Below, piece after piece: positions 29,101 to 61,304 of a DNA stretch of 61,433 nucleotides. Source of the DNA: an uncultured bacterium (lineage in GTDB: Bacteria > Bacteroidota > Bacteroidia > CAILMK01); NCBI GenBank assembly GCA_903829945.1, contig CAIKRV010000091.1, positions 1 through 61,433 on the forward strand, given 5' to 3'. The position numbers were made by a program, and so were the translations under genes. Every line of letters begins with the position of its first letter. The first letter of the stretch is position 1. The notes below the pieces were generated by a model, which was not told the origin of the DNA, searched no databases, and saw only the letters and a program-made list of their open reading frames with translations.

Positions 29101-30162
29101 TTAATTTTTCATTCCTTCCAACTTGGCAGGATTTAAAATGGTGATATTGCTTGCCTGAATTTCAATTATTTTTTCACTCTTAAAATCAGATAATACCCTA
29201 ATTACAGATTCCGGAGCTGTACCGACCATACTGGCTAAATCTTCCCTGGATACTGACATCTTAAAGGTATCTTCATTTTCGGATTTTTTGTACCTTTTGT
29301 ATAACATCATTAAAGAATCTGCCACACGTTTTCTAACGGAATTATACGCCAGTTTTACTAAACGTTCTTCCTGTGCCTTTAAATCATTAGAAAGCATTCT
29401 AATAAATTTATTAGATACATCTCTATTCTTATACATTAAGTCATTAAAATCCTCACGAGGGATTATGGATACTTCTGTATCCTCTAAAGCCATAGCTGTT
29501 TCCGAATAATTTGAATCTTCTAATAAGGCTACATACCCTAAAAAATCTCCTTCCTTATATAATCCGGTAATATAATCCTTCCCTTCATCGTTGGACTTAA
29601 AAGTCTTAACTTTACCTTTATTAATAAAATATAATCCGGAAGGGAAGTTCTTTTCATAAAATATAATTTCCTTCTTTTTAAAAACCTTGGTTTTTCTATT
29701 TTCAGGCAAGCGCTTTAACTCTTCCAAACCTCGAGCTTCTCTGATAAAATTATCTAATCCTTCAGCATCACGACCAAATTCCTGTTTTAAAACTTCCGTC
29801 TTTTTAAGTCGGGATTCCACGGCATTTAATAACTCCGTTTCATCAAAAGGCTTGGTAATATAATCATCAGCCCCAAGGTTCATGCCTTTGCGGAAATCAT
29901 TACGGTCGGCCTTGGCAGTTAAAAATATAAACGGAATGGTGGCCGTAGCATGATCTTTACTTAAAATATGCAAAACACTATACCCATCCAATTCAGGCAT
30001 CATAATGTCACAAATAATAAGATCAGGCTTATGTTCCTGGGCAGATTTAACACCTTTCTTACCATTTTCAGCCGTAATCACCTCAAAATTAGCTAGTTCT
30101 AAAATTTCAGCTGTGTTTTCCCGCATTTCAGGATTATCTTCAATCAGTAATATTTTTTTCAT
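29101..30162 (-). CDS. Response regulator: receiver fused to CRP/FNR-like DNA-binding module
   Basis: Protein of 353 residues. Receiver domain at 1-120 with Asp9, phosphoacceptor Asp52 and Lys104; a linker; a cyclic-nucleotide-binding-like beta barrel (about 155-245); and a Crp-type winged helix (about 270-345). The recognition helix TAPESVIRVLSDF keeps Glu318 and Arg322, the pair that reads the TGA half-site in CRP and FNR. The cNMP pocket looks degenerate (GDFLGYVAL; no Arg where CRP binds phosphate), and no FNR-type Cys cluster is present. Control is therefore likely by phosphorylation. It is last in the four-gene signalling operon. Confidence 0.9.
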   Translation of the reverse strand: MKKILLIEDNPEMRENTAEILELANFEVITAENGKKGVKSAQEHKPDLIICDIMMPELDGYSVLHILSKDHATATIPFIFLTAKADRNDFRKGMNLGADDYITKPFDETELLNAVESRLKKTEVLKQEFGRDAEGLDNFIREARGLEELKRLPENRKTKVFKKKEIIFYEKNFPSGLYFINKGKVKTFKSNDEGKDYITGLYKEGDFLGYVALLEDSNYSETAMALEDTEVSIIPREDFNDLMYKNRDVSNKFIRMLSNDLKAQEERLVKLAYNSVRKRVADSLMMLYKRYKKSENEDTFKMSVSREDLASMVGTAPESVIRVLSDFKSEKIIEIQASNITILNPAKLEGMKN

Positions 30163-30200: not shown

Positions 30201-31403
30201 TTAAAATTTAGGAATTACTATCGTAAAAACAGTTCCTTTCCCTTCTTCGCTAATAAAATCAATTTCTCCTCCCAACAAAGAAACATATTTTTTCACAATA
30301 TGCAGACCAAGGCCGGTACCCTGAACATTAACTGCATTTCTAGCCCGGAAAAAGCGTTCAAACAAATGCTTTTGCTCCTCTACCGGAATGCCAATTCCTT
30401 CATCACGTACTTCAAAACGTATTTCCTGATCATTAACATTCGTGCTAAAATATATATTCTTATTGGCCTTGGAATACTTAATGGCATTTGAAATCAAATT
30501 TATCAATACATTATGAAGAATTTGTTTATCTAAAAAAATCAAATTATCACCGGTATGATTAAATACAATTTTTTGTCCTTCGGTGGCAATGGTAGAAATA
30601 TCCTCTACGATATCTTCTGCAAATTTATCTAATTCAAAATACACCGGATTAGTGTCTATTCTACCTTCTTCAAGTTTTGACAGGGAAAGGAAACTTTCTA
30701 AGATTTCCGTTAAGTTTTTTACGGAAGCCTTTATCCTACCCAAATGCTTTTGTCTTTTATCTATATCCTTATCCGAATATTTTTCCAGCAAAGTAGTTGA
30801 AGATAAAATAGTACTCAACGGGGTTCTAAATTCATGGGAAGCCATCGTTACAAACCGCGACTTCATTTCATTGAGTTCTTTTTCTTTTTGCAGGGCTTTT
30901 ATTATTTCATTTCTGGATTCATCCAATTTTATAACGGCCACTTCAAGTTCGTGGGTACGTTCCTCAACTCTCTTTTCCAGGTCCTGATTCAGTTTTTTAA
31001 TTTCTGCTATTAGGCTATAATCATTAATGCTGTACCTGATGGAGCGCTCCAATTGATATGGAACGATGGTGCCTTTTACGAGGTAATCAGCAGCACCTGC
31101 TTTCATTGCCAATTCATCTATGGCTAAATCGCCTTGACCGGTGAGCAGAATCATTGGAGCATCGCAGCCGGATTCTACCGAAGCCCTGATGAGTGCCAAA
31201 CCGTCATCAGCCCCTAAACGATAATCCACCAGATATACATGATGCTCTCTATTAGCAATGGCTCTTTCAGCATCGCTTAAATTAGATACCCAATCCAACT
31301 TATACTTTCTTGTTTGTATTTCGGATAAAATATCTCTGGTAATGATGTAATCTTCCTCATCATCATCTACCAAAAGCACCTTTATTTGACTGGAAAAATT
31401 CAC
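30201..31403 (-). CDS. Hybrid receiver-histidine kinase (soluble)
   Basis: Protein of 400 residues. An N-terminal receiver (about 7-125; DDDEED acid patch at 13-18, phosphoacceptor Asp60) is followed by a coiled coil (about 133-178), a HisKA domain with phosphoacceptor His190 (TMASHEFRTPLSTI), and an ATPase domain with N box (LINLISNAIKY), G1 DEGIGIP and G2 GTGLGLHIVKKY. No membrane segment is seen. The receiver could take a signal from the upstream PAS kinase and gate this kinase, which could phosphorylate the receiver-CRP regulator 38 nt downstream. It overlaps the single receiver gene by 1 nt. Confidence 0.9.
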   Translation of the reverse strand: MNFSSQIKVLLVDDDEEDYIITRDILSEIQTRKYKLDWVSNLSDAERAIANREHHVYLVDYRLGADDGLALIRASVESGCDAPMILLTGQGDLAIDELAMKAGAADYLVKGTIVPYQLERSIRYSINDYSLIAEIKKLNQDLEKRVEERTHELEVAVIKLDESRNEIIKALQKEKELNEMKSRFVTMASHEFRTPLSTILSSTTLLEKYSDKDIDKRQKHLGRIKASVKNLTEILESFLSLSKLEEGRIDTNPVYFELDKFAEDIVEDISTIATEGQKIVFNHTGDNLIFLDKQILHNVLINLISNAIKYSKANKNIYFSTNVNDQEIRFEVRDEGIGIPVEEQKHLFERFFRARNAVNVQGTGLGLHIVKKYVSLLGGEIDFISEEGKGTVFTIVIPKF

Positions 31404-31855
31404 TAATCTTTACTTATCGGTAATTCAACAATTTCGAACCAATATTTACTAAGGGTGGACATGGCATCAACCAAATCACTAAATTTAACCGGTTTAGTAA
31501 TAAAAGAGCTGACTCCTAAATCATAAGTTTTAACAATATCCTCCTCAGCTTTAGAGGTAGTAAGTACTACTACAGGAATGCTGCGCAGAATTTTGTTGGC
31601 CTTAATTTCCTTGAGTGCTTCTCTCCCATCCATCCGTGGCATATTTAAATCCAGAAGTATTAATCCCGGCGTTGGATATTTTAATTTATCTTCATAATTG
31701 CCTCGATGAAGCAGGTAATCCAATAAATCTTCGCCATCTTCTACAAAATGCAATTGATTTGCCAGACGGCTTTCTTCCAAAGCCTCTTTAGTCAGCATCC
31801 GATCTTCTGCATCATCGTCTGCAATTAGTATACAAATTGAATTATTTCTAGTCAT
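31403..31855 (-). CDS. Single-domain response regulator (Rcp1-like)
   Basis: Receiver domain of 150 residues. It has the acidic patch ADDDAED (12-18), phosphoacceptor Asp69 in LLDLNMPRMDG, the Thr/Lys switch residues in VVLTTS and ITKPVKF. The insertion with HRGNYEDKLKYPTPGLILL is typical of Rcp1-like receivers paired with phytochrome-type kinases. There is no output domain. It starts 1 nt after the PAS kinase stop and ends within the start codon of the next kinase gene, so it probably shuttles phosphate between the two kinases. Confidence 0.92.
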   Translation of the reverse strand: MTRNNSICILIADDDAEDRMLTKEALEESRLANQLHFVEDGEDLLDYLLHRGNYEDKLKYPTPGLILLDLNMPRMDGREALKEIKANKILRSIPVVVLTTSKAEEDIVKTYDLGVSSFITKPVKFSDLVDAMSTLSKYWFEIVELPISKD

Positions 31856-31856: not shown

Positions 31857-33407
31857 TTATGCTTGGTTTTTAATTTGTTTTTTTGCTAAGGTTACAATAA
31901 AAGTAGTGCCTTGCCCTAAGGTGCTTTTTGCTTCTATTTTACCGCCATGATATATGGCTATTTTTCTACAAATGGCTAAGCCTACCCCCGAACCTTCAAA
32001 TTTTTTAGATTCTAATCTTTGAAAAATATTAAATATTTTATCAATGTATTTTTCGTCAAACCCAATACCATTGTCTTCAAAATAAAGTTCAATCATTTCA
32101 TCCCCCGGAGTAGAAACTAACAGTTTATCCTTTTGGATATCTTTTGCATAAACCTTTATGATAGGCTTTACATCATCTTTTCTAAATTTAATTGCATTGC
32201 TTAGCATATTTTGAAAAAGTTGACGCATTTGTACGGGTTCTGCCTGTATGGTTGGCAATTTATCAACTATAATGCTTGCACCTGATTTTTCAATGCTGAT
32301 TTCAATATCAGATAAAACTTCTCGTATGGTATTATTTAAATCTACATTAACAAAATCCTGAGCAATCGTTGTGACTCTGGAAAAGGTCAGCAAGTCATTA
32401 ATTAATTGTTGCATTCGAGCCGCAGCATTTAACATTCTATCCAAATAATCCACGCCCGCTTCACTCAATTGACTTCCTTCTTTTACTTTTAAACGATCGC
32501 CAAAGGATTGAATTTTTCTTAACGGTTCTTGCAAATCATGAGAGGACACATAAGCAAAATCTTGTAATTCGGAATTGCTTCTTTGCAAAGCAGCGGCAGA
32601 ACGCCTTAGTTTTTCTTCGGCTAATTTGCGCTCGGTAATATCATGGATAATACCGGTAAAAATAATACGTTCACCAATTTTTACTTCACTAACACTTAGA
32701 TTTATCGGGAATAATGTACCATCCTTTTTCATGGCGGTCACTTCTCTGCCGATACCAATTATTTTACCTTTACCCGTATTATAATAATTTTGCATGTAAG
32801 TATCATGCTGCGAACCAAAAGGCTCCGGCATTAAAGCATTCACACTTTTACCGCGCATTTCTTCTTGAGTATATCCGAATAATTTAGATGCTGCCGGATT
32901 AAATAGTTCAATAATGCCTTTGGTATTAATGGTAATAATACCATCCACCGCATTGTTTAGAATGGCATTAAATTTATATTCACTTTCTACAAGAGCAGAT
33001 TCTGCTTCTTTTATTTGCGAAATATCGTGTACAATACCAGTAAAGATTTTTCTATCGGATAATTGTGTTTCACTAATACTTAATAAAAATGGAAAAGTTG
33101 TCCCATTCTTGCGAAGGCCCAATACCTCACGACCTATACCAATAATTTTCTTTATTCCGGTATTATGATAATTATGAAGATATGAATCATGTGCAGAATG
33201 ATAGGGCTCAGGCATCAGCATATTAATATTATGCCCGATGACCTCATCCTCATTATATCCAAATATTCGAGCGGCTGCAGGGTTCAATGACTCTACTATC
33301 CCACGTTCATTAATGGTAATTATTCCATCAATGACGGTCTCAAAAATTGAACGTAAAATGGAATCACTTTCATGTGAGTTTATTTTCTTTCCGTCCTCCA
33401 ATACCAA
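31857..33407 (-). CDS. Soluble histidine kinase with two FixL-like heme-type PAS domains
   Basis: Protein of 516 residues: PAS1 (about 14-135), PAS2 (about 142-262), dimerisation helix with SSHDLQEP (phosphoacceptor His290), and an ATPase domain (N box FQNMLSNAIKF, G1 DNGIGFD, G2 GSGVGLAI). Both PAS domains read like FixL. His73 and His201 align with the heme ligand His200 of Bradyrhizobium FixL, and Arg93 and Arg221 with the distal Arg220 at the same 20-residue distance; IIGIGREV is present in both. No membrane segment. The start is TTG at 33407; no ATG is available before PAS1, and a TATCTTTG box lies 13 nt upstream. It heads the signalling operon. Oxygen (or NO) sensing is inferred. Confidence 0.9.
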   Translation of the reverse strand: MVLEDGKKINSHESDSILRSIFETVIDGIITINERGIVESLNPAAARIFGYNEDEVIGHNINMLMPEPYHSAHDSYLHNYHNTGIKKIIGIGREVLGLRKNGTTFPFLLSISETQLSDRKIFTGIVHDISQIKEAESALVESEYKFNAILNNAVDGIITINTKGIIELFNPAASKLFGYTQEEMRGKSVNALMPEPFGSQHDTYMQNYYNTGKGKIIGIGREVTAMKKDGTLFPINLSVSEVKIGERIIFTGIIHDITERKLAEEKLRRSAAALQRSNSELQDFAYVSSHDLQEPLRKIQSFGDRLKVKEGSQLSEAGVDYLDRMLNAAARMQQLINDLLTFSRVTTIAQDFVNVDLNNTIREVLSDIEISIEKSGASIIVDKLPTIQAEPVQMRQLFQNMLSNAIKFRKDDVKPIIKVYAKDIQKDKLLVSTPGDEMIELYFEDNGIGFDEKYIDKIFNIFQRLESKKFEGSGVGLAICRKIAIYHGGKIEAKSTLGQGTTFIVTLAKKQIKNQA

Positions 33408-33420: not shown

Positions 33421-33428
33421 CAAAGATA
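33421..33428 (-). promoter_or_regulatory. -7 promoter box of the signalling operon
   Basis: TATCTTTG on the minus strand, a perfect TAnnTTTG, 13 nt before the TTG start of the PAS kinase. No TTTG lies at the expected -33 position, so an activator could be needed. Confidence 0.6.
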
Positions 33429-33469: not shown

Positions 33470-33862
33470 TTAATCTTCAAATCTGCTGATTTTCAGGTTC
33501 AAACGTTCAGCATGCTCATTTTGATATTCTATTGACCAATAATCTGATTTTGAAGCTTCTATCCAATTATCTCCTGATTGAGTTAATATTAAAATATTTA
33601 TCCCAAAGGTTTTGAAAAATTTGTCTTTGAGTTGCTCAATAGTATGTTCCGGCTTCACCACAATTTTAGTGGTTTTTGAAATACTTGGTTTATATGAATT
33701 TAAACCAACCTCAAGCAATAATGGTGTTTTAATTTGACCATCAGGGCTTCCCAAATAAAAGTCAATTTTTAAATACGGATATTTTAAATTGAATTCCTCT
33801 TGGACTTGACCCACTGTTTTTCTACCATTGGCTGTTATATTCATTTTAGCGACGCTCAGCAT
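33470..33862 (-). CDS. Small conserved Bacteroidota protein, function unknown
   Basis: Protein of 130 residues without signal peptide or membrane helix. Either Met1 (33862) or Met7 (33844) could be the start; TVGQVQEEFNLKYPYLKIDFY after Met7 is the conserved opening I associate with an unnamed Bacteroidota family. The ending WIEASKSDYWSIEYQNEHAE suggests a mixed alpha/beta fold. It lies upstream of the signalling operon on the same strand (62-nt gap) and downstream of a large perfect inverted repeat. An AAGGGGA element just before the ATG resembles a Shine-Dalgarno site, rare in this window. I cannot assign a function. Confidence 0.6.
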   Translation of the reverse strand: MLSVAKMNITANGRKTVGQVQEEFNLKYPYLKIDFYLGSPDGQIKTPLLLEVGLNSYKPSISKTTKIVVKPEHTIEQLKDKFFKTFGINILILTQSGDNWIEASKSDYWSIEYQNEHAERLNLKISRFED

Positions 33863-33918: not shown

Positions 33919-33958
33919 CTTAGGTGTAAAACTGATTTATGTCAGTTTTACACCTAAG
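33919..33958. promoter_or_regulatory. 17-bp perfect inverted repeat with CRP/FNR-like core
   Basis: CTTAGGTGTAAAACTGA (33919-33935) and TCAGTTTTACACCTAAG (33942-33958) are perfect complements with a 6-nt centre. The centre reads ACTGA-N6-TCAGT (33931-33946), matching the palindrome before nifJ. It lies between two divergent genes, 57 to 96 nt upstream of the small conserved gene and about 200 nt before the aspartate kinase gene. There is no U-run and no gene reads into it, so an operator is more likely than a terminator. Confidence 0.7.
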
Positions 33959-41932: not shown

Positions 41933-41946
41933 ATGATTTTCATCAT
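41933..41946. promoter_or_regulatory. CRP/FNR-like palindrome, distal site before the radical SAM gene
   Basis: ATGATTTTCATCAT: TGAT-N4-ATCA, the core form of an FNR-type site. Its centre lies about 107 nt upstream of the start of transcription predicted from the -7 box at 42033-42040, near the distances used by class I activators. Confidence 0.45.
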
Positions 41947-41997: not shown

Positions 41998-42009
41998 TGA
42001 TTATAATCA
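41998..42009. promoter_or_regulatory. CRP/FNR-like palindrome, proximal site before the radical SAM gene
   Basis: TGATTATAATCA, a perfect 12-bp palindrome of the TGAT-N4-ATCA form. Its centre is about 43 nt upstream of the predicted transcription start, close to the -41.5 position of class II CRP/FNR activation, and it takes the place of the missing -33 TTTG. Confidence 0.55.
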
Positions 42010-43735: not shown

Positions 43736-46700
43736 TTACAGTTCTTTGGCCAAATCTTCCAAATGTTTCAATTTGCCGTCCGATAATTCCTTGGCTTCTT
43801 CAAACAATGTTTTTGCCAATTCAGGATTGGATTTATATACTGTTGAAAATCTGGTCTCCGACATCATATAATCTTGCAAAGACATCGTTGGAGGTTTTGA
43901 ATCTACCACAAAACGTGAACCTTTTTCTTTCCGCGGATCATAGCGGAACAAAGGCCAATATCCTGATTTTACTGCATTTACTTGCTGATCAGTAGCCTTA
44001 TTCATTTCAAAACCATGTGCTATACATGGTGAATAGGCCAATATAATAGACGGGCCATTAAAGGATTCAGCCTCATGTATGGCTCTTACTGTTTGTACAT
44101 CATTCGCCCCTAAAGCAATTTGTGCCACATATACATGCCCATAATTTACCGCCATTAAACCTAAATCTTTTTTTGCGGTTTTTTTACCGGATATGGCAAA
44201 CCTGGCACTGGCACCCAGTGGCGTAGATTTAGAAGTTTGTCCGCCCGTATTAGAATAAACTTCGGTATCAAGTACCAAAATGTTTACATTTTCATTGGAA
44301 GCAAGTACATGATCCACCCCGCCAAATCCAATATCATATGCCCAACCGTCTCCTCCTATAATCCACACACTTTGCTTTGCCAAAAATTCAGATAAATTTA
44401 ATAATCGTTTTGCATCCGTATCAGTTTGGTTTTTCAATATCAAATTCAATTGCTCTATACGTTTTCTTTGCTCTTCAATTCCAAGTTCTGTACTTTGGTC
44501 CGCATTTAATAAATCATCTGCCAATGTTCCAATTTTCTCCTTTAATTTTATCAGCAAAGTTTTGGCAGCATCAGATTTAAATGTAATGGCTTTTCGCATG
44601 CCTAATCCAAATTCGGCATTATCTTCAAATAATGAATTAGCCCATGCCGGTCCCCTGCCTTTTAAATTAGTAGTCCATGGGGTAGTCGGCAAATTTCCAC
44701 CATATATGGAGGAACATCCGGTTGCATTGGCCACCACAATTCTATCCCCGAATAATTGACTTAATAATTTTACATAGGGAGTTTCACCGCATCCGGAACA
44801 AGCACCTGAAAATTCAAATAACGGTTGCAAAAATTGGGATCCTTTTACACTGTTTGAATTTACTCTACTCCTTTCCAATTCAGGTAATCCTAAAAAAAAA
44901 TCCCAATTATTTTTTTCAAATTCATGAATGGGAATAGGATCAGCCATTACTAAAGCTTTATTCGAGGCACCTTCTTTTTTATTAATGGGACAAATCTCCA
45001 CGCATAATTGGCAACCTGTACAATCTTCCACGGATACTTGCAAGGAATAAGCTTCCTTATCTTTATTAAATTCCTTGCCTACCGAAGGATAACTTTTAAA
45101 AGTTTCCGGTGCGCTCATCAATAAATTCTTATCGTAAACTTTAGCACGAATGGCGGCATGCGGACAAATAATAATACATTTTGCACATTGCGTACATGCA
45201 TCTTCTATCCAAACCGGAACTTCAGATGCTATAAATCTTTTTTCATATTTTGAGGTTCCTACCGGAAAGGTGCCATCCACCGGCATAGCGCTTACCGGAA
45301 GACTATCGCCTTCGCCTGACATAATTTTTGCCAAGACATCCTGTACAAATTCAGGAGCATTTATAGATATATGGGATTTTTCTGGTCCTGCATTTGTTTG
45401 CATCGGATATTGTACCTCATATAAATGCGATAAGGCCATATCTACTGCATTAAAATTCTTTTGGACTACTTCATCACCTTTTCGTTTATAAGTCTTTTCT
45501 ATGGCTGATTTAATTTTTCGGATCGCTTCCTCTCTGGGCAATAAACCGGATACTGCAAAAAAACAAGTTTGTAAAATTCCATTTACACGATTGCCCATAC
45601 CGGTTTCTTTGGCCACCGATTGTGCATCGACAATATAAAACTTAAGCTTTTTAGCAATAATCAATTCTTGGGTATGCAAAGGAAGATGGTTCCATACCTC
45701 TTCTTGGCCATAAGGACTATTTAAAAGAAAAACGGCACCTTGTTTTGCAATGTCTAAAACTTTATATTTTTCTAAAAAATTAAATTGATGACAAGCTACA
45801 AAATCTGCACTTTCCACCAAATATGAAGAATTAATCGGCTTATTACTAAATCGCAAATGTGAAACCGTTAATGAACCGGATTTTTTTGAATCATAAACAA
45901 AATAACCTTGTACAAACATTTCTGTAGTATCTCCAATAATTTTGATCGTATTTTTATTTGCGCCAACCGTTCCGTCTGCGCCTAATCCAAAAAATACAGA
46001 TTCATATGCTTCACTATTTCGCTCTTTATTATAGGAAGAATAATCCAAACTTAAATGTGTTAAATCATCATTAATACCAATGGTAAAATGCTTTTTGGGA
46101 TTTGCCTTTTCTATTTCTTCATAGATGGCATTTACCATAGCAGGCGTAAATTCCTTAGAAGATAAACCGTACCTGCCGGCAATTACCTTGATTGGTTCAT
46201 TTCCTGAAAATGCTTCCATGCCTATCGTTTCTACAATTGCATTCACTACATCCTGAAATAAAGGCTCACCTAAGGCACCCGGCTCCTTCGTCCGGTCCAA
46301 AACTGCAATTGTTTTAACTGATTTTGGTAAAGCCTCCATAAATTTTTTGGCGGAAAATGGACGATATAATCGCACATTTAATAATCCTCTTTTTTGCCAC
46401 TTAGCACCATCTGCGAATAAAGCATCTTTTACAGCACCGGTACCGGAACCCATCATGACAATAACGTGCTCAGCATCCAAGTCTCCTACATAATCAAACA
46501 AATTATATTTTCTGCCGGTCAGTTGAGCAAATTGATGCATGGTTTCTTCTACAATATCCGGTAAGCGATTATAATATTGATTAGCGGCTTCTCTGTTTTG
46601 AAAAAACACGTCAGGATTTTGTGCCGTTCCTCTAATGATGGGCGCATTAGGATTTAATCCTCTATTTCTATGTTGATCCACCAAGTGATCATCAATCATT

Positions 46701-47278
46701 GCTTTAATAATATTATCTGAAAGCAATGAAACTTTTTTCAATTCATGGGAAGTACGGAAACCATCAAATATATGCATAAACGGCACTCTGGCTTTCAAGG
46801 TAGCTGCCTGAGAAATGAGTGCCATATCCATGGCCTCCTGCACGCCGTCAGCAAACAGCATGGCCCATCCTGTACTTCTTGCCGCCATCACGTCCGAATG
46901 ATCACCGAAAATGGAAAGCGCATGCGTAGCAATAGATCTGGCTGCAATATGAAAAACAGTAGAAGTAAGTTCTCCGGCAATTTTAAACATATTTGGTATC
47001 ATCAACAACAATCCTTGAGAAGCCGTAAAAGTGGAAGCTAATGCACCCCCTTGCAAAGCCCCATGTATGGTACCGGCAGCTCCGGCTTCACTTTGCATTT
47101 CGATTACTTCAGGCGTATTGCCCCAAATATTTTTTTGATCCTTTGCGGCCCATTCATCTACATGCTCCCCCATCGCAGAGGAGGGTGTGATAGGATAAAT
47201 AGCGCATACTTCATTTGTTTTATAGGCAACGTAAGCTGCAGCTTCATTACCGTCCATGATTACATATTTAGTCTCCAT
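43736..47278 (-). CDS. nifJ: Pyruvate:ferredoxin (flavodoxin) oxidoreductase, single-chain
   Basis: Homodimer-type PFOR of 1180 residues, with all domains fused: domain I (about 1-250; AIYPITPSSAMGEHVDEWAA), domain III gamma-like, a 2[4Fe-4S] ferredoxin domain (CTQCAKCIIICP and CTGCQLCVEICP, about 690-770), and a TPP domain with SGACSGCGETPYVKLL, GCSSIYGGNLP and GDGWAYDIGFGG. It oxidises pyruvate to acetyl-CoA and CO2 and reduces ferredoxin. It is oxygen sensitive. It lies downstream of the complex I operon but with a 150-nt gap, its own FNR-like palindrome and its own terminator. Confidence 0.97.
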   Translation of the reverse strand: METKYVIMDGNEAAAYVAYKTNEVCAIYPITPSSAMGEHVDEWAAKDQKNIWGNTPEVIEMQSEAGAAGTIHGALQGGALASTFTASQGLLLMIPNMFKIAGELTSTVFHIAARSIATHALSIFGDHSDVMAARSTGWAMLFADGVQEAMDMALISQAATLKARVPFMHIFDGFRTSHELKKVSLLSDNIIKAMIDDHLVDQHRNRGLNPNAPIIRGTAQNPDVFFQNREAANQYYNRLPDIVEETMHQFAQLTGRKYNLFDYVGDLDAEHVIVMMGSGTGAVKDALFADGAKWQKRGLLNVRLYRPFSAKKFMEALPKSVKTIAVLDRTKEPGALGEPLFQDVVNAIVETIGMEAFSGNEPIKVIAGRYGLSSKEFTPAMVNAIYEEIEKANPKKHFTIGINDDLTHLSLDYSSYNKERNSEAYESVFFGLGADGTVGANKNTIKIIGDTTEMFVQGYFVYDSKKSGSLTVSHLRFSNKPINSSYLVESADFVACHQFNFLEKYKVLDIAKQGAVFLLNSPYGQEEVWNHLPLHTQELIIAKKLKFYIVDAQSVAKETGMGNRVNGILQTCFFAVSGLLPREEAIRKIKSAIEKTYKRKGDEVVQKNFNAVDMALSHLYEVQYPMQTNAGPEKSHISINAPEFVQDVLAKIMSGEGDSLPVSAMPVDGTFPVGTSKYEKRFIASEVPVWIEDACTQCAKCIIICPHAAIRAKVYDKNLLMSAPETFKSYPSVGKEFNKDKEAYSLQVSVEDCTGCQLCVEICPINKKEGASNKALVMADPIPIHEFEKNNWDFFLGLPELERSRVNSNSVKGSQFLQPLFEFSGACSGCGETPYVKLLSQLFGDRIVVANATGCSSIYGGNLPTTPWTTNLKGRGPAWANSLFEDNAEFGLGMRKAITFKSDAAKTLLIKLKEKIGTLADDLLNADQSTELGIEEQRKRIEQLNLILKNQTDTDAKRLLNLSEFLAKQSVWIIGGDGWAYDIGFGGVDHVLASNENVNILVLDTEVYSNTGGQTSKSTPLGASARFAISGKKTAKKDLGLMAVNYGHVYVAQIALGANDVQTVRAIHEAESFNGPSIILAYSPCIAHGFEMNKATDQQVNAVKSGYWPLFRYDPRKEKGSRFVVDSKPPTMSLQDYMMSETRFSTVYKSNPELAKTLFEEAKELSDGKLKHLEDLAKEL

Positions 47279-47357
47279 TTTCTAATTTTTTAATTGGACA
47301 AACAATACTTCATTAGTAAATAATGCTGTAAAAATAACAAGTAAGCTTGATAGAAAA

Positions 47358-47373
47358 ACTGATAAAAATCAGT
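47358..47373. promoter_or_regulatory. CRP/FNR-like palindrome upstream of nifJ
   Basis: ACTGATAAAAATCAGT, arms ACTGA/TCAGT around six bases, the same arms as the core of the 33919-33958 repeat. Its centre is about 87 nt before the nifJ ATG. A loose -7-like TATTGTTTG (47299-47307, minus) lies between. Confidence 0.55.
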
Positions 47374-47428
47374 GCTATAAACTAGCGAAAAAGATTGTCT
47401 AAGAATAATTTAAATAAGCCTTATGCAC

Positions 47429-47788
47429 TTATTTAAAGATGGAATACTGACGTGTATTTTCATTCCAATACCAATCAGGACTTTTTTCTCCGGTAAACCA
47501 AAAATGGGGTAACAAAATAGAACCATCCGGTGTTTTTAATTTACGATTATATAATAATAATGCTAAATTAAACATAATATTAGCCACACCAACAATATAT
47601 AGCGGTTCCGTTGGTGCATCTTCGGGCTTTTTGGGCGGTGGATTATCCGCCACTATCACTTCCAAATGATTACATTCCAAAATACTTTTTATAAAATTAG
47701 CTCTGGACAATGAAATACCTTCCTCTACAATGGCACAATTTTTACCATTTAGTTCCTTGACCTCGTAAATGCCTTTTAATTGTGTCAT
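47429..47788 (-). CDS. Small protein of unknown function, last gene of the kor-nuo operon
   Basis: Protein of 119 residues with no clear domain. It begins MTQLKGIYEVKELNGKNCAI and has a Pro-rich stretch DNPPPKKPEDAP (48-59), then IVGVANIMFNLALLLYN, which could be an amphipathic or weak membrane helix, and ends with PHFWFTGEKSPDWYW, rich in aromatic residues. Its start overlaps the nuoN stop by 4 nt (ATGA type), so it is co-translated with complex I. I do not recognise it. An accessory or assembly factor of the complex is possible, by position alone. Confidence 0.65.
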   Translation of the reverse strand: MTQLKGIYEVKELNGKNCAIVEEGISLSRANFIKSILECNHLEVIVADNPPPKKPEDAPTEPLYIVGVANIMFNLALLLYNRKLKTPDGSILLPHFWFTGEKSPDWYWNENTRQYSIFK

Positions 47789-49200
47789 ATTCCAAAACTT
47801 AAATAATTAAAATACTCAAATAAGTCACCTATAAATCCAATAGCAATAATCCCAATGATGCAGAAAACCAAACTTAATTTACCTAACCAAGAGCCGGCCG
47901 TAATTAAACTTTGCTCCTCTGTAGCATCTGTAAATATTATACGTACTATTCTTAAGTAATAATATAATGAAATAATCATATTTAATACTGCAATGGCGGT
48001 AATCAAATAATAGCCCTTACTCATAGCAGAATTTAATAAAAAGAATTTACCAAAAAATCCGGCAGTCGGCGGAACACCTGCTAAGGATAACATCGCTAAA
48101 ACCATTACAATACCGAGAAATGGATTTCTTTTATATAAACCACTTAAATCAAGTATAGAATCCTTGCCATTTTGGTGATGTAAAATTCCTAATACACCAA
48201 ATGCAGCTAAATTTGAAAATATATAAATAAAGATAAAATATAAAACGGAGCCCATTGCTAAGTTGGAACCTGAAATCATGCCCAATAAGATAAATCCGGC
48301 TTGAGCAATGGAAGAAAAGGCTAAAAATCTTTTCAAATTTGTTTGACGTAATGCGAATAAATTACCAATCGTTATACTGAAAACAGTAGTTAATGATAGA
48401 GCATAAATCCACGTAGTATTAAAACTTCCGAAAACCTTATACAAAATTGTTAAAAATATAAATACAGTTGCACTCTTTGAAATAACGGATAAAAATGAAG
48501 TTACATTAATAGGTGCTCCTTCATAAACATCAGCCGTCCATAAATGAAATGGAACAATAGATAATTTAAATCCAAATCCGGCAAAAATAAACAAAAATGC
48601 AAGGACTGACAATGATCCGTCAAAATGAATAGCAACCATTTTATCAAATAATAAAGTACCGCTCAAACCATATAATAAGCTAATTCCAAATAATAAAATA
48701 CAAGATGAAAAACCTGACATCAATATCATTTTGATACCAGCTTCAGCAGAACTTTTTTCTGCCTTATTAAAACTTACTAAAGCCGCCAAAGGTAAAGAAG
48801 CTAATTCAAAACCAATATAAAAGATTGTAAAGTGTCCTGATGAAATCATTATATCCATTCCCAATAAAGTGGCAATTAAGATAAAATAATATTCTACATT
48901 ATTCTTAAAGGTATTGGTCCAATCAGAAGCTTGCATGCAAATGATTAAGGTACCGATAGCCAGGAGGTTTTTTTCCAATACAATTGTAGCGTTTGATTGA
49001 AACATGCCTCCGAATAAATTCCCATAACTTGTATTCAAAAAACCCATAATAATATTAATTGCCATCAAAATATTTATTCCAAAAATAATTCCACGATTAA
49101 TACTGGAATTGCTGGCTACTAATTTATATAGTAATAACAAAATAAGTATTCCAAACAGGAAAAACTCTTGACGTAATATTAATATATCTGAAATATTCAT
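47785..49200 (-). CDS. nuoN: NADH-quinone oxidoreductase-like subunit N
   Basis: Antiporter-like membrane subunit of 471 residues with about 13-14 hydrophobic helices. It has SGHFTIFYIGFELASLPLAAL (parts), HLWTADVYEGAPINVTSFL and AMLSLAGVPPTAGFFGKFFL, typical of NuoN. It pumps protons at the membrane arm of complex I. It follows nuoM with a 7-nt gap and overlaps the small gene downstream. Length is normal. Confidence 0.95.
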   Translation of the reverse strand: MNISDILILRQEFFLFGILILLLLYKLVASNSSINRGIIFGINILMAINIIMGFLNTSYGNLFGGMFQSNATIVLEKNLLAIGTLIICMQASDWTNTFKNNVEYYFILIATLLGMDIMISSGHFTIFYIGFELASLPLAALVSFNKAEKSSAEAGIKMILMSGFSSCILLFGISLLYGLSGTLLFDKMVAIHFDGSLSVLAFLFIFAGFGFKLSIVPFHLWTADVYEGAPINVTSFLSVISKSATVFIFLTILYKVFGSFNTTWIYALSLTTVFSITIGNLFALRQTNLKRFLAFSSIAQAGFILLGMISGSNLAMGSVLYFIFIYIFSNLAAFGVLGILHHQNGKDSILDLSGLYKRNPFLGIVMVLAMLSLAGVPPTAGFFGKFFLLNSAMSKGYYLITAIAVLNMIISLYYYLRIVRIIFTDATEEQSLITAGSWLGKLSLVFCIIGIIAIGFIGDLFEYFNYLSFGI

Positions 49201-49207
49201 TTTGAAA

Positions 49208-50716
49208 TTATATATTTAAAATTCCGTGAGGTACAACTGCAACGCTATGGTCTTTTATTTGAAGCATAATATTATTGACTCCATATTGAATTAAATCTGA
49301 AATCCAAGTAGGATATATTCCGACAAAAATGATAGTTCCAACCAAGATTACAATTAAATATTTTTCATACCAAGAGCCGTCTTTCAATGGTGAAAATTCA
49401 TTACTTAATGGTCCAAAAATAACGGAACCACTCATCCTTAAAATATATACCGCCGTTATAACAATGGATAAAATTGAGAAAATAGTAATTAAATGAATAA
49501 AATGACCATCGGCTGCATAGGAACCGAAAAATATTTTAGCTTCCGATGGAAAACCGCTTAAGCCCGGTAAACCCAATGAACATAAACCGGCAATAATAAA
49601 AGCGGTTCCAATAAATGGAAGAACTTTTTGCAAACCACTCATTTCTGAAACTATTCGGGTATGTGTTCTACCGTATATCATTCCTATTAAGGCAAAGAAT
49701 AATGCCGTCATAATTCCATGTGAAAACATTTGCATAACTGCCCCATTTAATGCCGTCGCATTCATAGCCAAAATACCTATTAAAACCAATGAAGTATGAC
49801 TAATGGACGAATAAGCATTAATATATTTCAAATCCGTTTGACGCACGGTAGCAAATGCTGCGTAGAGTACGCCAATTAATGCTAATGTTAAAAATATCCA
49901 TGCCTGATTAATGGCAGCTTGTGGCATTAAAGCCATGGCTACCCTCAAACATCCATACGCACCCATTTTCATTGAAATACCCGATAAGAACATAGAAGCC
50001 GCCGTAGGTGCTGAAGAGTGCCCATCAGGTACCCAGGTGTGAAATGGAAACATAGCGGTAAAAATACCAAACCCCGTAAATAGTAATGGGAATAATATTT
50101 GTTGCACCTTTACAGGTAATCCATTTTTAGCAATAACACTAATATCAAAGCAATGACTACCGTTATAATATATTCCCAACATGCTCACCAAAATCATTGC
50201 TGAGCCGGCCATCAACATCAATACCAACTTATTAGCACTGGCTATATGCTTGCCACTGCCCCATATACTGATTAATAAAAATTTTGGAATAATAGCGATT
50301 TCCAAGAAGAAAAATAAAGTAAATAAATCCTGCGCAATAAAGAACCCATAAGCCCCAGTACTCAATAAAAATAAATTAAAATAAAATTCGCGAGGCTTTA
50401 ATGAAATATTCCATGAGGCAAGTACCCCCGTAAAACTAATGATGGCCGTCAGTAAAATCATAGCCAATCCTATACCGTCCACACCTGTATGATAATTTAA
50501 ATTTAAAGTTTTAAACCATGGCAAAGAACTTTCATATAAAGTAGTGGACGCATTTATCAATTTAACATCCTGCAAATAAAAACTCAATAATGATAAAACA
50601 AAAAGCAACTGCAGTATCGAGCCCAACAATGAAATCCAACGTACCACTTCCTGTCTTTTAAAAAAGCATAAAAGCAAAAGTGTTAGTCCGGGAAATAGAA
50701 AAATTAAGTTTAACAT
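49208..50716 (-). CDS. nuoM: NADH-quinone oxidoreductase-like subunit M
   Basis: Antiporter-like subunit of 502 residues with about 14 helices. FFFLEIAIIPKFLLI holds the conserved helix-5 Glu, and FPFHTWVPDGHSSAPTAASM with FLSGISMKMGAYG carries the conserved Lys. LGLPGLSGFPSEAKIFFGSY completes the NuoM signature. It lies 18 nt behind the HEPN-like gene and 7 nt before nuoN. Confidence 0.96.
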   Translation of the reverse strand: MLNLIFLFPGLTLLLLCFFKRQEVVRWISLLGSILQLLFVLSLLSFYLQDVKLINASTTLYESSLPWFKTLNLNYHTGVDGIGLAMILLTAIISFTGVLASWNISLKPREFYFNLFLLSTGAYGFFIAQDLFTLFFFLEIAIIPKFLLISIWGSGKHIASANKLVLMLMAGSAMILVSMLGIYYNGSHCFDISVIAKNGLPVKVQQILFPLLFTGFGIFTAMFPFHTWVPDGHSSAPTAASMFLSGISMKMGAYGCLRVAMALMPQAAINQAWIFLTLALIGVLYAAFATVRQTDLKYINAYSSISHTSLVLIGILAMNATALNGAVMQMFSHGIMTALFFALIGMIYGRTHTRIVSEMSGLQKVLPFIGTAFIIAGLCSLGLPGLSGFPSEAKIFFGSYAADGHFIHLITIFSILSIVITAVYILRMSGSVIFGPLSNEFSPLKDGSWYEKYLIVILVGTIIFVGIYPTWISDLIQYGVNNIMLQIKDHSVAVVPHGILNI

Positions 50717-50734
50717 TTAATAATATTTTATCAC

Positions 50735-51187
50735 TTAATATGCTGGAGAATTTTCCAATAATTCATTTAAATCTATATACGACAAAACCAAAGTCTGTAA
50801 GTTTCTTGCCAATTGAGCACATTTACTTACATGTTCATGCGAAAGACAATAAAGATGATGATCATTATTATTGCTTGCACTACAATTTAAAACACTTAAA
50901 TCTATATCCGCAAATCGGTCATCTATATGTTGGCATTCGCTTATTAATTGTTCCACACTTGCATCTATATATTTTTTATTAAAGTCGTCCAAGGATTTTA
51001 ATGAATTTAATTCGGCAACTTGATGATAAATCAAAAATGCCATGAGCAAGTCTTTAATGGAATGATTTGCCGCATGACATATAGAGAAAGTTACACTATC
51101 TTCATTTGGACGCATTTGTTCCCGCTCTGCTAATTGCAAATTAGCTTCCGCTTTATTAAGTAAATTAGTTATTTCTTGATGCATCAT
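50735..51187 (-). CDS. HEPN-like soluble protein inside the complex I operon
   Basis: Helical protein of 150 residues. NLLNKAEANLQLAER and ICHAANHSIKDLLMAFLIYH resemble the first two helices of HEPN domains; the R-x4-6-H nuclease motif is absent, so it is probably not a ribonuclease. It is rich in Cys and His: C37, C85, C102 and C114-x2-H117-x-H119-x3-C123, which could bind a metal. It lies between nuoL (25-nt gap) and nuoM (18-nt gap), on the same strand, and so is surely co-transcribed. Its role with complex I is unknown; HEPN assignment is moderate. Confidence 0.6.
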   Translation of the reverse strand: MMHQEITNLLNKAEANLQLAEREQMRPNEDSVTFSICHAANHSIKDLLMAFLIYHQVAELNSLKSLDDFNKKYIDASVEQLISECQHIDDRFADIDLSVLNCSASNNNDHHLYCLSHEHVSKCAQLARNLQTLVLSYIDLNELLENSPAY

Positions 51188-51212
51188 AATTTTAACGTTT
51201 TAAATTAAACCA

Positions 51213-53129
51213 TTATATACTTATGCACAATATAAACAACAGCAGTAAACCTGCCATAAAAAACATCATATAGTATTGTAAATTTCCACTTTGCATGCCT
51301 CTAATTTTTCTCGACAAAAACAATGAAAAATTAGCCGTCAATTGCATAAAGCCATCCACAATATTTTTATCTATCCATTGAATAGGTTTTGCAATGCTAT
51401 TAAAAACGATTGACTTCGTAAAAAATAAATAAACCTCATCAATGTAAAATTTCTTATAAATAATTTGGTATAAACTACCCAGCGATGAAACCATTGTGCG
51501 TGGTCTATCCGAATCTGATTTATACATAAACAAGGCTAATAAAATTCCGGATATGGCCATTGCAATGGCTATGGCAGTTACACTGAAATTTGAAGTTTCA
51601 TCAATATGAACATCGAAATTAATAAATTTAGCAAAAGGGATAAATCCTGCCATCATTGCTCCTATGGCAAGTATTCCTAATGGTAAGTTTTCCAACCAAG
51701 AGGAATGAGGGTGAGAATTATGTTTATCTTCAGAATTAATGGCATCCCGCCAAAAAATACTTAAATATAAGCGGAACATATAAAAAGCAGTTAATCCGGC
51801 CGTCAATACCCCTAGGATAAAAATAAATCCATTTGCTTCCCAGGCAGTATTCAAAATCATTTCCTTACTAAAAAACCCGGCAAACGGAGGTATGCCTGCA
51901 ATGGCTAAACAAGCGATTAAAAATACAATATTTAAAAATGGCATCTTTTTCCGCAAAGCACCCATATCCCGCATATCGTTGCTATGCACGTAGTGTATAA
52001 CAACCCCGGCAGATAAAAATAATAATGCCTTAAATATAGCATGGGTAAATAAATGAAACATTGAAGCTGTATATCCATGCACATTTTGATTCCATCCTCC
52101 CAAGCCTAATGAAAATATCATATAACCAATTTGAGACATGGTAGAATATGCCAATACCCGTTTGATGTCAAATTGCGTACATGCAATAATAGCAGCAAAT
52201 AATGAAGTAAATGCTCCTGCATATGCAATTATTCGCAATATCTCCGGCGCAGAAAATAAATAAATCGGGAACAATCTCGCCACTAAATAAACACCTGCTA
52301 CTACCATGGTAGCAGCATGAATTAATGCTGAAACCGGTGTGGGACCTTCCATGGCATCAGGCAACCATATATGTAGTGGGAATAATGCAGATTTACCTGC
52401 ACCGCCAATAAAAATAAATAATAAACCGGTAGAAAGTGAAGACCATCCAATAAAGGTAGTTCCTAAATGTAAATGATCGATTGCACCCGCTTGCCCTAAA
52501 TTTTGAATGAGCGTTGGAATATCCAAACTACCACCAATAGAAGAAACAATTAAAATTCCAACTAAAAAAAACATATCCGCAAATCGCGTCACTATAAATG
52601 CTTTTTTAGCAGCAGCAACAGCCGAGGGTTTATCGTAATAAAAACCTATCAATAAAAAGGAGGAAACCCCTACCAATTCCCAACCCATATACATTTGAAA
52701 GATATTTACGGATAATACCAATAATAACATGGAGAACGTAAATAAACCCAAAAAAGCATAATAGGTAGCAAAGCGTTTTTCCCCATGCATATAGGATAAA
52801 CTGAATATATGTACCATTAAAGAAATTAAGGTAACTACAATAAGCATCATAACGGAAATTCCATCAATAATGGCGCCTAATTGTACATTTATACCTTTTC
52901 CAAATTGAAGCCAATCAAACTTAAATGGAATTTGCGCAGGATAGGCGCCATCTTTTGATACTGCAAAAAAAGTGTATGCGATAGAAAGAGAAAGAACAAA
53001 TGAAATGGCAATACACAAGGTGCCTAAAATTCCGGCTAATTTATTTCCAATAACCTTTCCAAATAATCCATTGAGTACAAAGACTGCCAATGGTAATGCC
53101 GGAATCAAAATAATGGATAAACTATTCAT
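51213..53129 (-). CDS. nuoL: NADH-quinone oxidoreductase-like subunit L
   Basis: Largest antiporter-like subunit, 638 residues with about 16 hydrophobic helices. FQMYMGWELVGVSSFLLIGF (about 144-163), LPDAMEGPTPVSALIHAATM and GIPPFAGFFSKEMIL are the NuoL signatures. The C-terminal horizontal helix region is present (YKKFYIDEVYLFFTKSIV). It overlaps nuoK by 8 nt. It pumps protons and couples them along the membrane arm. Confidence 0.96.
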   Translation of the reverse strand: MNSLSIILIPALPLAVFVLNGLFGKVIGNKLAGILGTLCIAISFVLSLSIAYTFFAVSKDGAYPAQIPFKFDWLQFGKGINVQLGAIIDGISVMMLIVVTLISLMVHIFSLSYMHGEKRFATYYAFLGLFTFSMLLLVLSVNIFQMYMGWELVGVSSFLLIGFYYDKPSAVAAAKKAFIVTRFADMFFLVGILIVSSIGGSLDIPTLIQNLGQAGAIDHLHLGTTFIGWSSLSTGLLFIFIGGAGKSALFPLHIWLPDAMEGPTPVSALIHAATMVVAGVYLVARLFPIYLFSAPEILRIIAYAGAFTSLFAAIIACTQFDIKRVLAYSTMSQIGYMIFSLGLGGWNQNVHGYTASMFHLFTHAIFKALLFLSAGVVIHYVHSNDMRDMGALRKKMPFLNIVFLIACLAIAGIPPFAGFFSKEMILNTAWEANGFIFILGVLTAGLTAFYMFRLYLSIFWRDAINSEDKHNSHPHSSWLENLPLGILAIGAMMAGFIPFAKFINFDVHIDETSNFSVTAIAIAMAISGILLALFMYKSDSDRPRTMVSSLGSLYQIIYKKFYIDEVYLFFTKSIVFNSIAKPIQWIDKNIVDGFMQLTANFSLFLSRKIRGMQSGNLQYYMMFFMAGLLLLFILCISI

Positions 53130-53445
53130 GATCTTGTAAGGTTTTTAGTTCTTCCGGATAAATGGTGTGAAAATTTCTATATAAATTTAATAATATAGCT
53201 ATGGCAATAGCTGCTTCCGCTGCTGCAATGGTAATGATAAAAATTACAAAGAACATTCCGTCCAAGGTACCCGGAAATAAATATTTACTGAACACAATAA
53301 AATTTACACAAATGCCATTAATCATTAATTCTAATGACATTAAAATCATAATTAGATTAGTTCGGGTAAAAAATCCATATACGCCAATAAAAAATAATGC
53401 CGTACTGACAATTAAAACATGGTATATTGGTATTCCGTGGAACAT
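53122..53445 (-). CDS. nuoK: NADH-quinone oxidoreductase-like subunit K
   Basis: Small three-helix membrane subunit of 107 residues. LMSLELMINGICVNFIVF holds the conserved Glu of helix 2, and AAAEAAIAIAILLNLYRN the conserved helix 3 Glu. It abuts nuoJ (no gap) and overlaps nuoL by 8 nt. Confidence 0.95.
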   Translation of the reverse strand: MFHGIPIYHVLIVSTALFFIGVYGFFTRTNLIMILMSLELMINGICVNFIVFSKYLFPGTLDGMFFVIFIITIAAAEAAIAIAILLNLYRNFHTIYPEELKTLQDHE

Positions 53446-53997
53446 TTATTGAATTTTAATTTTTTCGTTATTTTGTTGTTCCTGATTTTTAAAATCTTCA
53501 TCCTTTACCGCCACTGCAATACCTGCCACCATAATCACCAGCAGCAGTACAGTTATTACCTCAAACGGGAATACATATCCACTGGAATGTACATCCAATA
53601 AACCATGGCCGATTTCCGAAATATTCAACTTTTTACCGCCGTCAGGCAAGGCATTAAACTTTTGTTGCAAAATCAGGTATATGGTAATAAAAAAACCGGA
53701 ACCGGCAACAGCCATTCCCAAAAGTTTTTTAAACCATGGCACCTTAGGAACATTTGCGTCCTCCGATTGCGTCAATAAAATTGAAAATAAAATCAAAACA
53801 ACTATTCCGCCAACATAAATAGTAATCTGAATAATTGCAATGAAATTAAATTCCAATAAAAAATAAAGTGCAGCGGTTAGCAATAAACTAATCAGTAAAT
53901 ATACCGCCGATCTAAAAAAACGACGACTGCTCACGGTCATTATTGCAAAAGATAATAGCAATAATGAAAAAGCGTAAAATAATATTACTTGCATCAT
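53446..53997 (-). CDS. nuoJ: NADH-quinone oxidoreductase-like subunit J
   Basis: Membrane subunit of 183 residues with five helices. FFRSAVYLLISLLLTAALYF and AIIQITIYVGGIVVLILF (about 55-73) match the NuoJ helix 3 with its pi-bulge glycines. It overlaps the nuoI stop by 1 nt. The C-terminal tail is charged and short. Confidence 0.94.
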   Translation of the reverse strand: MMQVILFYAFSLLLLSFAIMTVSSRRFFRSAVYLLISLLLTAALYFLLEFNFIAIIQITIYVGGIVVLILFSILLTQSEDANVPKVPWFKKLLGMAVAGSGFFITIYLILQQKFNALPDGGKKLNISEIGHGLLDVHSSGYVFPFEVITVLLLVIMVAGIAVAVKDEDFKNQEQQNNEKIKIQ

Positions 53998-54464
53998 TAC
54001 TTCAATTCCTCCACAAGGTTTGAACCTTCTTTATTGAGTTTTTTCATGAGCATGGCACGGTCAGTAACCGCAAATTCAAATGCCTGATCCATTTTAAGTG
54101 CGTCAGTAGGGCAGGCATCAACGCAAAGGGCACAAAAAGTACACATGGCATGTTGCCAAACAAAAGCATCTAAGCGTTTTTTACTTTTGCCATCTGCTGT
54201 TTCTTCCCGCTTTGAGATAATGCGAATGGTCCCATTAGGACAAGCCAACTCGCATGCAGAACATCCGGTGCAGCGGTGTTCATTTTCCAAAGTATGTTTT
54301 AAAATGAGTTCTCCTTTAAATCGTGGAGAAAGCACCAATGAATCTCTATTTTCAGGATATTCTTGAGTCAAATACTTCCTGAAATGAAGGAAATTCCGCC
54401 CGGTGAGCTTCATTCCTTCAAGCATGGAACTAACTGCTACGTATATGTCTTTAAAATATCCCAT
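53997..54464 (-). CDS. nuoI: NADH-quinone oxidoreductase-like subunit I (2[4Fe-4S])
   Basis: Peripheral iron-sulfur subunit of 155 residues. Two full cluster motifs, CTGCSACELACPNGTIRI and CTFCALCVDACPTDALKM, bind N6a and N6b. In ferredoxin-linked complex I, this subunit is the likely entry point for electrons, because the NuoG clusters are missing. It lies between nuoH (6-nt gap) and nuoJ. Confidence 0.96.
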   Translation of the reverse strand: MGYFKDIYVAVSSMLEGMKLTGRNFLHFRKYLTQEYPENRDSLVLSPRFKGELILKHTLENEHRCTGCSACELACPNGTIRIISKREETADGKSKKRLDAFVWQHAMCTFCALCVDACPTDALKMDQAFEFAVTDRAMLMKKLNKEGSNLVEELK

Positions 54465-54470
54465 ATTACA

Positions 54471-55535: not shown

Positions 55536-55536
55536 A

Positions 55537-56655: not shown

Positions 56656-56656
56656 A

Positions 56657-57115
56657 TTATAAAGTGATCATATTAATTTCATCCACATAATCTTTGCGCA
56701 AGGGATATCCAATCCATTCCTCGCCTAAAAATACTCTGCGTAATAAAGGATGATTGGTAAAGTTTATTCCGAATAAATCAAAAATTTCACATTCTAATAA
56801 TTCAGCTCCGGGCCATAAATCACAAATGGATTTTGTTTCCGGCGAATTGCGGTCAGAGATTTTTGATTTTATAATAAGTTGCGTTTTACTTTCTCTTGAA
56901 AATAAAATATACACCACTTCCATATAATCCGGCCAATCAATAGCCGTTAAACAAGAAAGTGTATCAAAACCCGGATTTACTTCAGTTTTTAAATATTTTA
57001 TTAAAGCATAGGCATCGGAAGCATTAATTAAAATGGTAGTCATATTGCTTTTTTCCTCAAATGTGCATTGAGGAAAAGCATCTGCCAATTTTATTTTTAA
57101 TTCTTCAATCTGCAT
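56657..57115 (-). CDS. nuoC: NADH-quinone oxidoreductase-like subunit C
   Basis: Soluble subunit of 152 residues. ERD-type end HPLLRRVFLGEEWIGYPLRKDY is the NuoC signature, and ELLECEIFDLFGINFTNHP precedes it. It bridges NuoB and NuoD. It has a 3-nt gap to nuoB and 1 nt to nuoD. Confidence 0.95.
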   Translation of the reverse strand: MQIEELKIKLADAFPQCTFEEKSNMTTILINASDAYALIKYLKTEVNPGFDTLSCLTAIDWPDYMEVVYILFSRESKTQLIIKSKISDRNSPETKSICDLWPGAELLECEIFDLFGINFTNHPLLRRVFLGEEWIGYPLRKDYVDEINMITL

Positions 57116-57118
57116 TGC

Positions 57119-57969: not shown

Positions 57970-57971
57970 GT

Positions 57972-60858: not shown

Positions 60859-60896
60859 AGGAGTTTTACTATTAGAGTTAAAACAAGAATGGTTGC

Positions 60897-61241: not shown

Positions 61242-61282
61242 AATTAAAATTTTAATTTTCGATACTATTTGTTTATCATGCG

Positions 61283-61304
61283 TTTTGATATCCATTAATC
61301 AAAA
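61283..61304. repeat. Inverted repeat in the ferredoxin gene leader
   Basis: TTTTGAT (61283-61289) and ATCAAAA (61298-61304) are perfect 7-bp complements around an 8-nt spacer. The half-sites resemble FNR halves but the spacing is too long for that family. It is about 42 nt upstream of the ferredoxin ATG. Confidence 0.35.

Follow-up and report, generated by a model that had tools for sequence, protein, structure and literature searches.

FixL holds heme only in the second of its two PAS domains (PMC8534201), and the O2 signal of FixLJ is received by FixK, a regulator that has no Fe-S cluster (PMC4999443). How FixL converts one O2 per subunit into control of the kinase, and what role its first PAS domain (PAS-A) plays, are standing questions. 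A protein with two heme-binding PAS domains has been described in Aer2 of Vibrio cholerae, a dual PAS-heme O2 receptor according to later papers that cite the original work (Greer-Phillips 2018, cited in PMC7534058 and PMC8694187). In the open-access literature, with its partial journal coverage, our search turned up neither a FixL-type kinase with heme in two PAS domains nor a Bacteroidota FixL/REC-CRP system.

Here we analyse a contig of 61,433 nucleotides from an uncultured member of the Bacteroidota (the window), which encodes a histidine kinase with two FixL-type PAS domains in tandem. A first-pass annotation of this DNA had set the tandem against FixL, where usually one PAS domain binds heme, and the published work bears this out. 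We propose, with a probability of roughly 60%, that the kinase is soluble, binds heme in both PAS domains, senses O2 in the manner of FixL and drives a fused FixJ-FixK regulator for low-oxygen respiration.

Results

Domain organization of the kinase

The kinase is encoded on the minus strand by an open reading frame of 516 residues (31857-33407), and domain searches together with its translation give the order PAS1-PAS2-HisKA-HATPase_c. The second TTG (33401) is the more likely start than the annotated beginning of the reading frame, because a TTG-GAR-GAN context is common to the window kinase and its Pontibacter relatives. About 20 bp upstream of this likely start lies TATCTTTG (33421-33428), which we take to be a match to the -7 promoter element of Bacteroidota; given this match, the kinase may have a promoter of its own. 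The sequence contains no membrane helix, in agreement with the earlier description of the kinase as soluble.

PAS1 (residues 15-131; 33015-33365, minus strand) falls into the FixL-type heme PAS class by sequence, profile and fold, and occupies the position of the heme-free PAS-A in FixL. PAS2 (residues 143-259; 32631-32981, minus strand) is assigned to the same class by sequence and by its place in the PAS tree. The HisKA domain that follows (32370-32567, minus strand) carries the phospho-acceptor H290 within SSHDLQEP, and the HATPase_c domain (31881-32237, minus strand) has intact N, G1 and G2 boxes on residue inspection (N400 and N404, DNGIGF and GSGVGLA), so that the protein has the features of a catalytic histidine kinase. 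When compared with solved structures, the kinase core is nearest in sequence to the bacteriophytochrome kinase 8f71, which agrees with the Rcp-type regulator encoded downstream.

Heme pockets of the two PAS domains

Both PAS copies align to the heme PAS domain of Bradyrhizobium FixL without a gap. In this alignment the predicted heme ligands are H73 of PAS1 (codon 33189-33191, minus strand) and H201 of PAS2 (32805-32807, minus strand), and the predicted distal arginines, equivalent to FixL R220, are R93 (33129-33131, minus strand) and R221 (32745-32747, minus strand). These are the four residues that the first-pass annotation had picked out, and its placement of all of them is correct, as are the 20-residue spacing from His to Arg that it gave for each domain and its equivalents of FixL I215 and I218 (I88 and I91 in PAS1, I216 and I219 in PAS2). 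The Ile/Leu distal cage is kept in both copies, and the residues Y203, Y207, I215, I216, G217, I218, R220, V222, L236 and G251 of FixL are identical in both. At the FixL M234 position PAS1 has Phe and PAS2 has Ile, and at the I238 position PAS1 has Ile and PAS2 has Val; ligand affinity could therefore shift between the two domains, and cooperative or two-threshold sensing by the two predicted hemes, as suggested earlier, is conceivable but conjectural.

The position of FixL H214 is Lys in both domains, and that of R206 is Asn (N79 in PAS1, N207 in PAS2). Since Asn is the commonest state at the latter position among the heme PAS domains that we collected (50 of about 85), we regard the change as a trait of the family rather than as damage. 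In Bradyrhizobium FixL, R206A significantly reduces inhibition of the kinase by O2 (PMC10765370), and the coupling of heme to kinase may thus differ here from that of FixL. The first-pass annotation, right about the pocket residues, had overlooked this replacement, as it had the candidate target sites and the conservation of the cassette, both described below.

PAS1 and PAS2 share 62 of 117 residues (53%) and 61% of their DNA, a divergence that rules out a recent duplication artefact in the window. The best match of PAS1 among solved structures is the Bradyrhizobium FixL heme domain, and that of PAS2 is the heme-bearing PAS-B of the FixL tandem construct 8js5. A profile built from both domains and their relatives retrieves FixL first and DosP next, both of them heme O2 sensors. 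When the full-length kinase is modelled with AlphaFold2 (mean pLDDT 81.7, pTM 0.48), its PAS pair superposes on PAS-A/PAS-B of 8js5 over about 255 columns, with a target TM of 0.76 and an RMSD of about 4 Å. Modelled alone (pLDDT 87.7), PAS1 best fits FixL PAS-B and the O2-bound FixL structure 1dp6 (112 columns, 1.1 Å, target TM 0.93), followed by DosP. Modelling against FixL structures, which had been proposed as a check of the original annotation, thus favours it for the pair and for PAS1 alone; the predicted models are heme-free and have low confidence in the loop after the His helix, so the pocket geometry stands as a prediction. The fold of PAS1 on the FixL heme domain, at the position of PAS-A, suggests that PAS1 is itself a FixL-type heme domain. 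Together, sequence, profile and fold support the assignment of both PAS domains to the FixL heme class.

Distribution and origin of tandem heme PAS domains

A strict DNA motif for the heme pocket occurred 47 times in 45 of 395 genomes of the phylum, and the reversed motif, used as a control, matched in no genome listed. Only the window genome had two strict matches in one gene in this sample. The tandem is not singular, however: two Pontibacter genomes outside the sample have it with its His and Arg residues (about 65% identity over the whole kinase), and Thermoflexibacter has two heme PAS domains in a row. A genome of the same genus as the window organism keeps PAS1 with its pocket. Among Alphaproteobacteria the motif was found in 27 of 240 genomes, and 8 of these 27 have a tandem pair, with a spacing of exactly 384 nt in seven of them and of 363 nt in the eighth; tandem FixL-type heme PAS kinases are also encoded on Azospirillum plasmids. 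A 920-residue protein from a Rhodospirillales MAG (L016:3830-6592) has three FixL-type heme PAS domains, each 128 residues from the next.

The pitch from His to His is 128 residues in most tandems, with exceptions at 121, 135 and 130. A strict heptad rule was considered and rejected: 121 and 135 are one heptad away from 128, but the Azospirillum kinase L145 has 130.

In a tree of 83 PAS domains (117 columns), in which many forks are unresolved, the window PAS2 groups with PAS2 of Pontibacter (support 95/81), and in several alphaproteobacterial pairs the two copies form sister branches. Duplication of the heme PAS domain therefore probably occurred several times independently. The PAS pairs at the loci that we fetched, a sample partly chosen by the motif, comprise 21 with both domains of the heme type and 8 mixed ones.

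A conserved cassette ending in a REC-CRP regulator

Three genes follow the kinase on the minus strand, all assigned by domain search. They encode an Rcp-type single-domain response regulator (31403-31855; D69), a REC-HisKA-HATPase protein that is the second kinase of the cassette (30201-31403; receiver D60), and a REC-cNMP_binding-HTH_Crp regulator (29101-30162; receiver D52), hereafter REC-CRP. The Response_reg domain of REC-CRP spans residues 4-116. With a single Cys, REC-CRP has no FNR-type Fe-S cluster; the two other clear CRP-family proteins of the genome have two Cys each and no such cluster either. At the head of the cluster, as judged from the reading frame and its relatives, is orf130 (33470-33862, minus strand), whose 130-residue product has no match in Pfam or NCBIfam. 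In G001, a genome of the same genus, the equivalent position holds a copy with 61% identity; the Pontibacter loci yielded no relative.

Pontibacter, Persicobacter and several Bacteroidetes MAGs share the order of kinase, Rcp-type regulator, REC-kinase and REC-CRP, with a sensor part that varies between two heme PAS domains, one, or none. The cassette kinase of Persicobacter has no heme motif, so that the cassette alone does not imply heme. REC-CRP is the next gene after the kinase in all seven other genomes of the class with a strict heme motif (L084-L090), and a search with the PAS pair found REC-CRP or the longer cassette adjoining in 18 of 23 loci. REC-CRP itself is present in 141 of the 295 sampled genomes of the class.

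Across Bacteroidia the FixL-like kinase usually stands directly before the REC-CRP gene and often close to genes of the cbb3 oxidase. In Pontibacter, ccoNO-P-G, a TauE-like gene and uspA precede the kinase; in G230, ccoNO lies beside it on the opposite strand; and in four more genomes (G110, G133, G225 and G272) cbb3 genes are no more than 10 kb away. The cbb3 operon of the window genome is complete and located elsewhere, with ccoN above its curated cut-off; an aa3-type oxidase is encoded as well. Judged by the linked genes, O2 is a more likely main ligand than NO or CO.

The same genome has a NorCB-like gene pair (L172:5361-7138) with a candidate regulator site, as defined below, just upstream. 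Its NorB-like protein matches COX1, weakly ccoN, and nothing else, and its identity as an NO reductase is putative. Genes of ferredoxin-dependent metabolism share a genome with both cbb3 and aa3-type oxidases: positions 43736-61295 of the window hold a pyruvate:ferredoxin oxidoreductase and a run of ferredoxin-2-oxoacid oxidoreductase and nuo genes, with a candidate site upstream of each.

Candidate regulator sites

As a pattern for regulator sites we used TGAYN4RTCA, the relaxed core of the FixK anaerobox TTGAT-N4-ATCAA (PMC7888657). It matches the window eight times, and five matches are intergenic although intergenic DNA makes up 4.8% of the window; shuffling the intergenic DNA gave an expectation of 0.18 such sites, and five were reached in none of 1000 shuffles. 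Four of these precede a gene by 62 to 81 bp. One of the four, TGATTTATGTCA (33933-33944), precedes orf130 by 70 bp and occupies the centre of a perfect inverted repeat (33919-33958; arms of 17 bp, loop of 6 nt) in the divergent region that separates orf130 from an aspartokinase gene. A like core is found at the same place in G001. The repeat far exceeds the length of a CRP-type site and may also act as a hairpin. Further candidates are TGATTATAATCA (41998-42009), which precedes a radical SAM gene by 62 bp and is joined there by the fifth intergenic match (41934-41945); TGATAAAAATCA (47360-47371), 81 bp upstream of the pyruvate:ferredoxin oxidoreductase; and TGATTATAGTCA (61363-61374), 67 bp upstream of the ferredoxin-2-oxoacid oxidoreductase-nuo run.

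Elsewhere in the genome, ccoI has two upstream sites 22 bp apart and the norC-like gene has one. In the loci of relatives (n=18) the pattern has 41 intergenic matches and its reversal 3, and of 12 close site pairs in these loci 8 are exactly 22 bp apart, a distance at which the control pattern gave none. Pairs of this kind, spaced by two helical turns, recur before cbb3 and other genes across Bacteroidota (L171:239-272, L194:15591-15624, L194:19188-19221, L187:1617-1650, L187:4097-4130, L181:7090-7123, L005:5787-5820 and L004:1324-1357). Upstream of 47 FixL-like kinase genes we counted 14 sites, against none for the control. The motif was derived in part from promoters that were later counted, which makes the relatives' loci, the reversed control and the 22-bp pairs the safer evidence. 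In the window genome as a whole there are 197 sites against 123 for the reversed pattern, so that many single sites are due to chance, and some lie inside genes or beside genes of no evident link to O2. A perfect anaerobox, TTGAT-N4-ATCAA, stands just upstream of the kinase gene in G001 (L002:446-459) and is absent from that place in the window.

A second CRP-family protein of the genome (L175) has a recognition helix, GTATEVLIRQLAKFK, similar to GTAPESVIRVLSDFK in the REC-CRP comparison, and for this reason we call the assignment of the sites to REC-CRP likely only.

Discussion

Building on the domain class, pocket residues, gene linkage and site enrichment observed here, we propose a model for this locus. 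Both tandem PAS domains would bind heme b, through H73 and H201, and heme-bound O2, in contact with R93 and R221, would lower kinase activity as it does in FixL, so that the predicted sign of the response is a rise in activity at low O2. Helical linkers would carry the signal to the kinase core of phytochrome type, from which phosphoryl groups would then take a putative route through the Rcp-type and REC-kinase partners and finally reach REC-CRP, the presumed site-binding regulator, which would bind TGAYN4RTCA sites and adjust low-oxygen respiration. Its targets would be the cbb3 oxidase, the operon of the kinase itself and probably ferredoxin-dependent enzymes. The system would thereby shorten FixL-FixJ-FixK, with the FixJ receiver and the DNA-binding part of FixK in one protein; what the second predicted heme would contribute is likewise conjectural.

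A competing account concerns the second heme. A single PAS domain, probably PAS2 next to the kinase, might do all of the O2 sensing, the other keeping its residues by descent or holding a structural heme. Heme in PAS-B alone suffices for FixL (PMC8534201), kinases with one heme PAS are common both in the same cassette and in the two-gene kinase/REC-CRP pair, and many tandem copies in the tree are sisters, that is, young duplications. The window copies, however, have diverged to 53% identity (61% in DNA) with their pocket residues outlasting much of that change; His and Arg of both copies are kept in Pontibacter, and PAS1 with its pocket is retained in the same-genus genome as well. We therefore consider a lone sensor unlikely, if a serious contender. 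That neither domain binds heme, their residues being relics of the FixL PAS family, is very improbable: non-heme members exist, and about 40% of the FixL/DosP PAS cluster lack the His (PMC10468136), but here His, distal Arg and distal cage are all present in both domains.

Two further accounts concern the ligand and the output. NO and CO are ligands of FixL heme too (structures 1dp8 and 1xj4), and the NorCB-like pair of the genome has an upstream site; against NO, CO or redox state as the signal of the PAS pair stand the distal Arg, a ligand contact in FixL that both domains keep, and the linkage in several genomes to cbb3, a high-affinity oxidase. This possibility seems to us improbable. On the output side, the TGAYN4RTCA sites might belong to L175, the kinase cassette then controlling something else. 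The very similar recognition helices speak for this, whereas the clustering of sites at kinase/REC-CRP loci across Bacteroidia, with 14 before 47 kinase genes and none for the control, argues that such an assignment is probably wrong.

Under the model of a two-heme O2 sensor above REC-CRP, the linkage described here offers a concrete and testable scheme for the control of low-oxygen respiration in many Bacteroidota (REC-CRP in 141 of 295 genomes). Natural kinases with predicted heme at both places, a near-constant pitch and independent origins also pose the question of whether successive heme sites act additively, cooperatively or at two thresholds. As a more speculative extension, which we advance tentatively and would not yet bet on, tandem FixL-type kinases may be an overlooked and repeatedly evolved group of two-heme, sometimes three-heme, O2 sensors. 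With their near-fixed pitch of 128 residues, the heme domains would be stacked in a common helical register; the sites might then integrate and give a response to O2 that is steeper than that of FixL or has two thresholds; in Bacteroidota such kinases would drive a fused FixJ-FixK regulator.

Comparison with known systems

The window kinase shares with FixL of Bradyrhizobium japonicum its solubility, two PAS domains, heme PAS class and His-Arg spacing, and the proximal His, distal Arg and hydrophobic distal cage of FixL are found in both of its PAS domains. It differs in that PAS1 carries the heme signature as well, where PAS-A of FixL is heme-free, and in having Asn for R206, Lys for H214 and a kinase core of the bacteriophytochrome type. 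The NCBIfam equivalog for FixL (NF041777) scores 303.6 bits against a cut-off of 850. The proximal Arg of FixL, BjFixL R206, is replaced by N79 and N207, and in place of a FixJ partner (receiver plus LuxR-type HTH) the partners are an Rcp-type REC protein, a REC-kinase and REC-CRP. The score, the partner and the replaced R206 rule out naming the kinase FixL; the best reading of its sequence is that it works like FixL yet belongs outside the strict definition.

The FixLJ-FixK and hFixL-FxkR-FixK cascades (PMC4999443, PMC7888657) likewise place a heme kinase above a cluster-free CRP/FNR regulator with cbb3 target genes, and their anaerobox TTGAT-N4-ATCAA corresponds to TGAYN4RTCA here. The window system differs from both by fusing receiver and CRP parts and by interposing an Rcp-type regulator and a REC-kinase. 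REC-CRP has the cNMP_binding and HTH_Crp domains of the FixK-like class and, as in that class, no FNR Cys cluster, but FixK-like regulators are stand-alone proteins without a receiver.

With Aer2, as described in the papers that cite its characterization, the window kinase shares two heme-binding PAS domains in one soluble protein, in the kinase by prediction. Aer2 is a chemoreceptor, and its PAS domains belong to a different heme family with the His at another place, on the E-alpha/E-eta helix (PMC10468136); the histidines of the window kinase are at the F-alpha position of the FixL family. The tandem kinases of the Azospirillum plasmids, annotated merely as PAS domain-containing sensor histidine kinase or PAS domain S-box protein, also have two FixL-type heme PAS domains before the kinase, at a pitch of 128 (L146) or 130 (L145) residues, but are followed by other response regulators and branch separately in the PAS tree. 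In Myxococcus xanthus, NmpRSTU (PMC11841059) resembles the proposed pathway in that several relay steps connect a heme kinase to a regulon for low oxygen that includes a cbb3 oxidase; the Nmp system differs in its NtrC-like output and in its globin sensor, a domain not homologous to the PAS pair of the window kinase.
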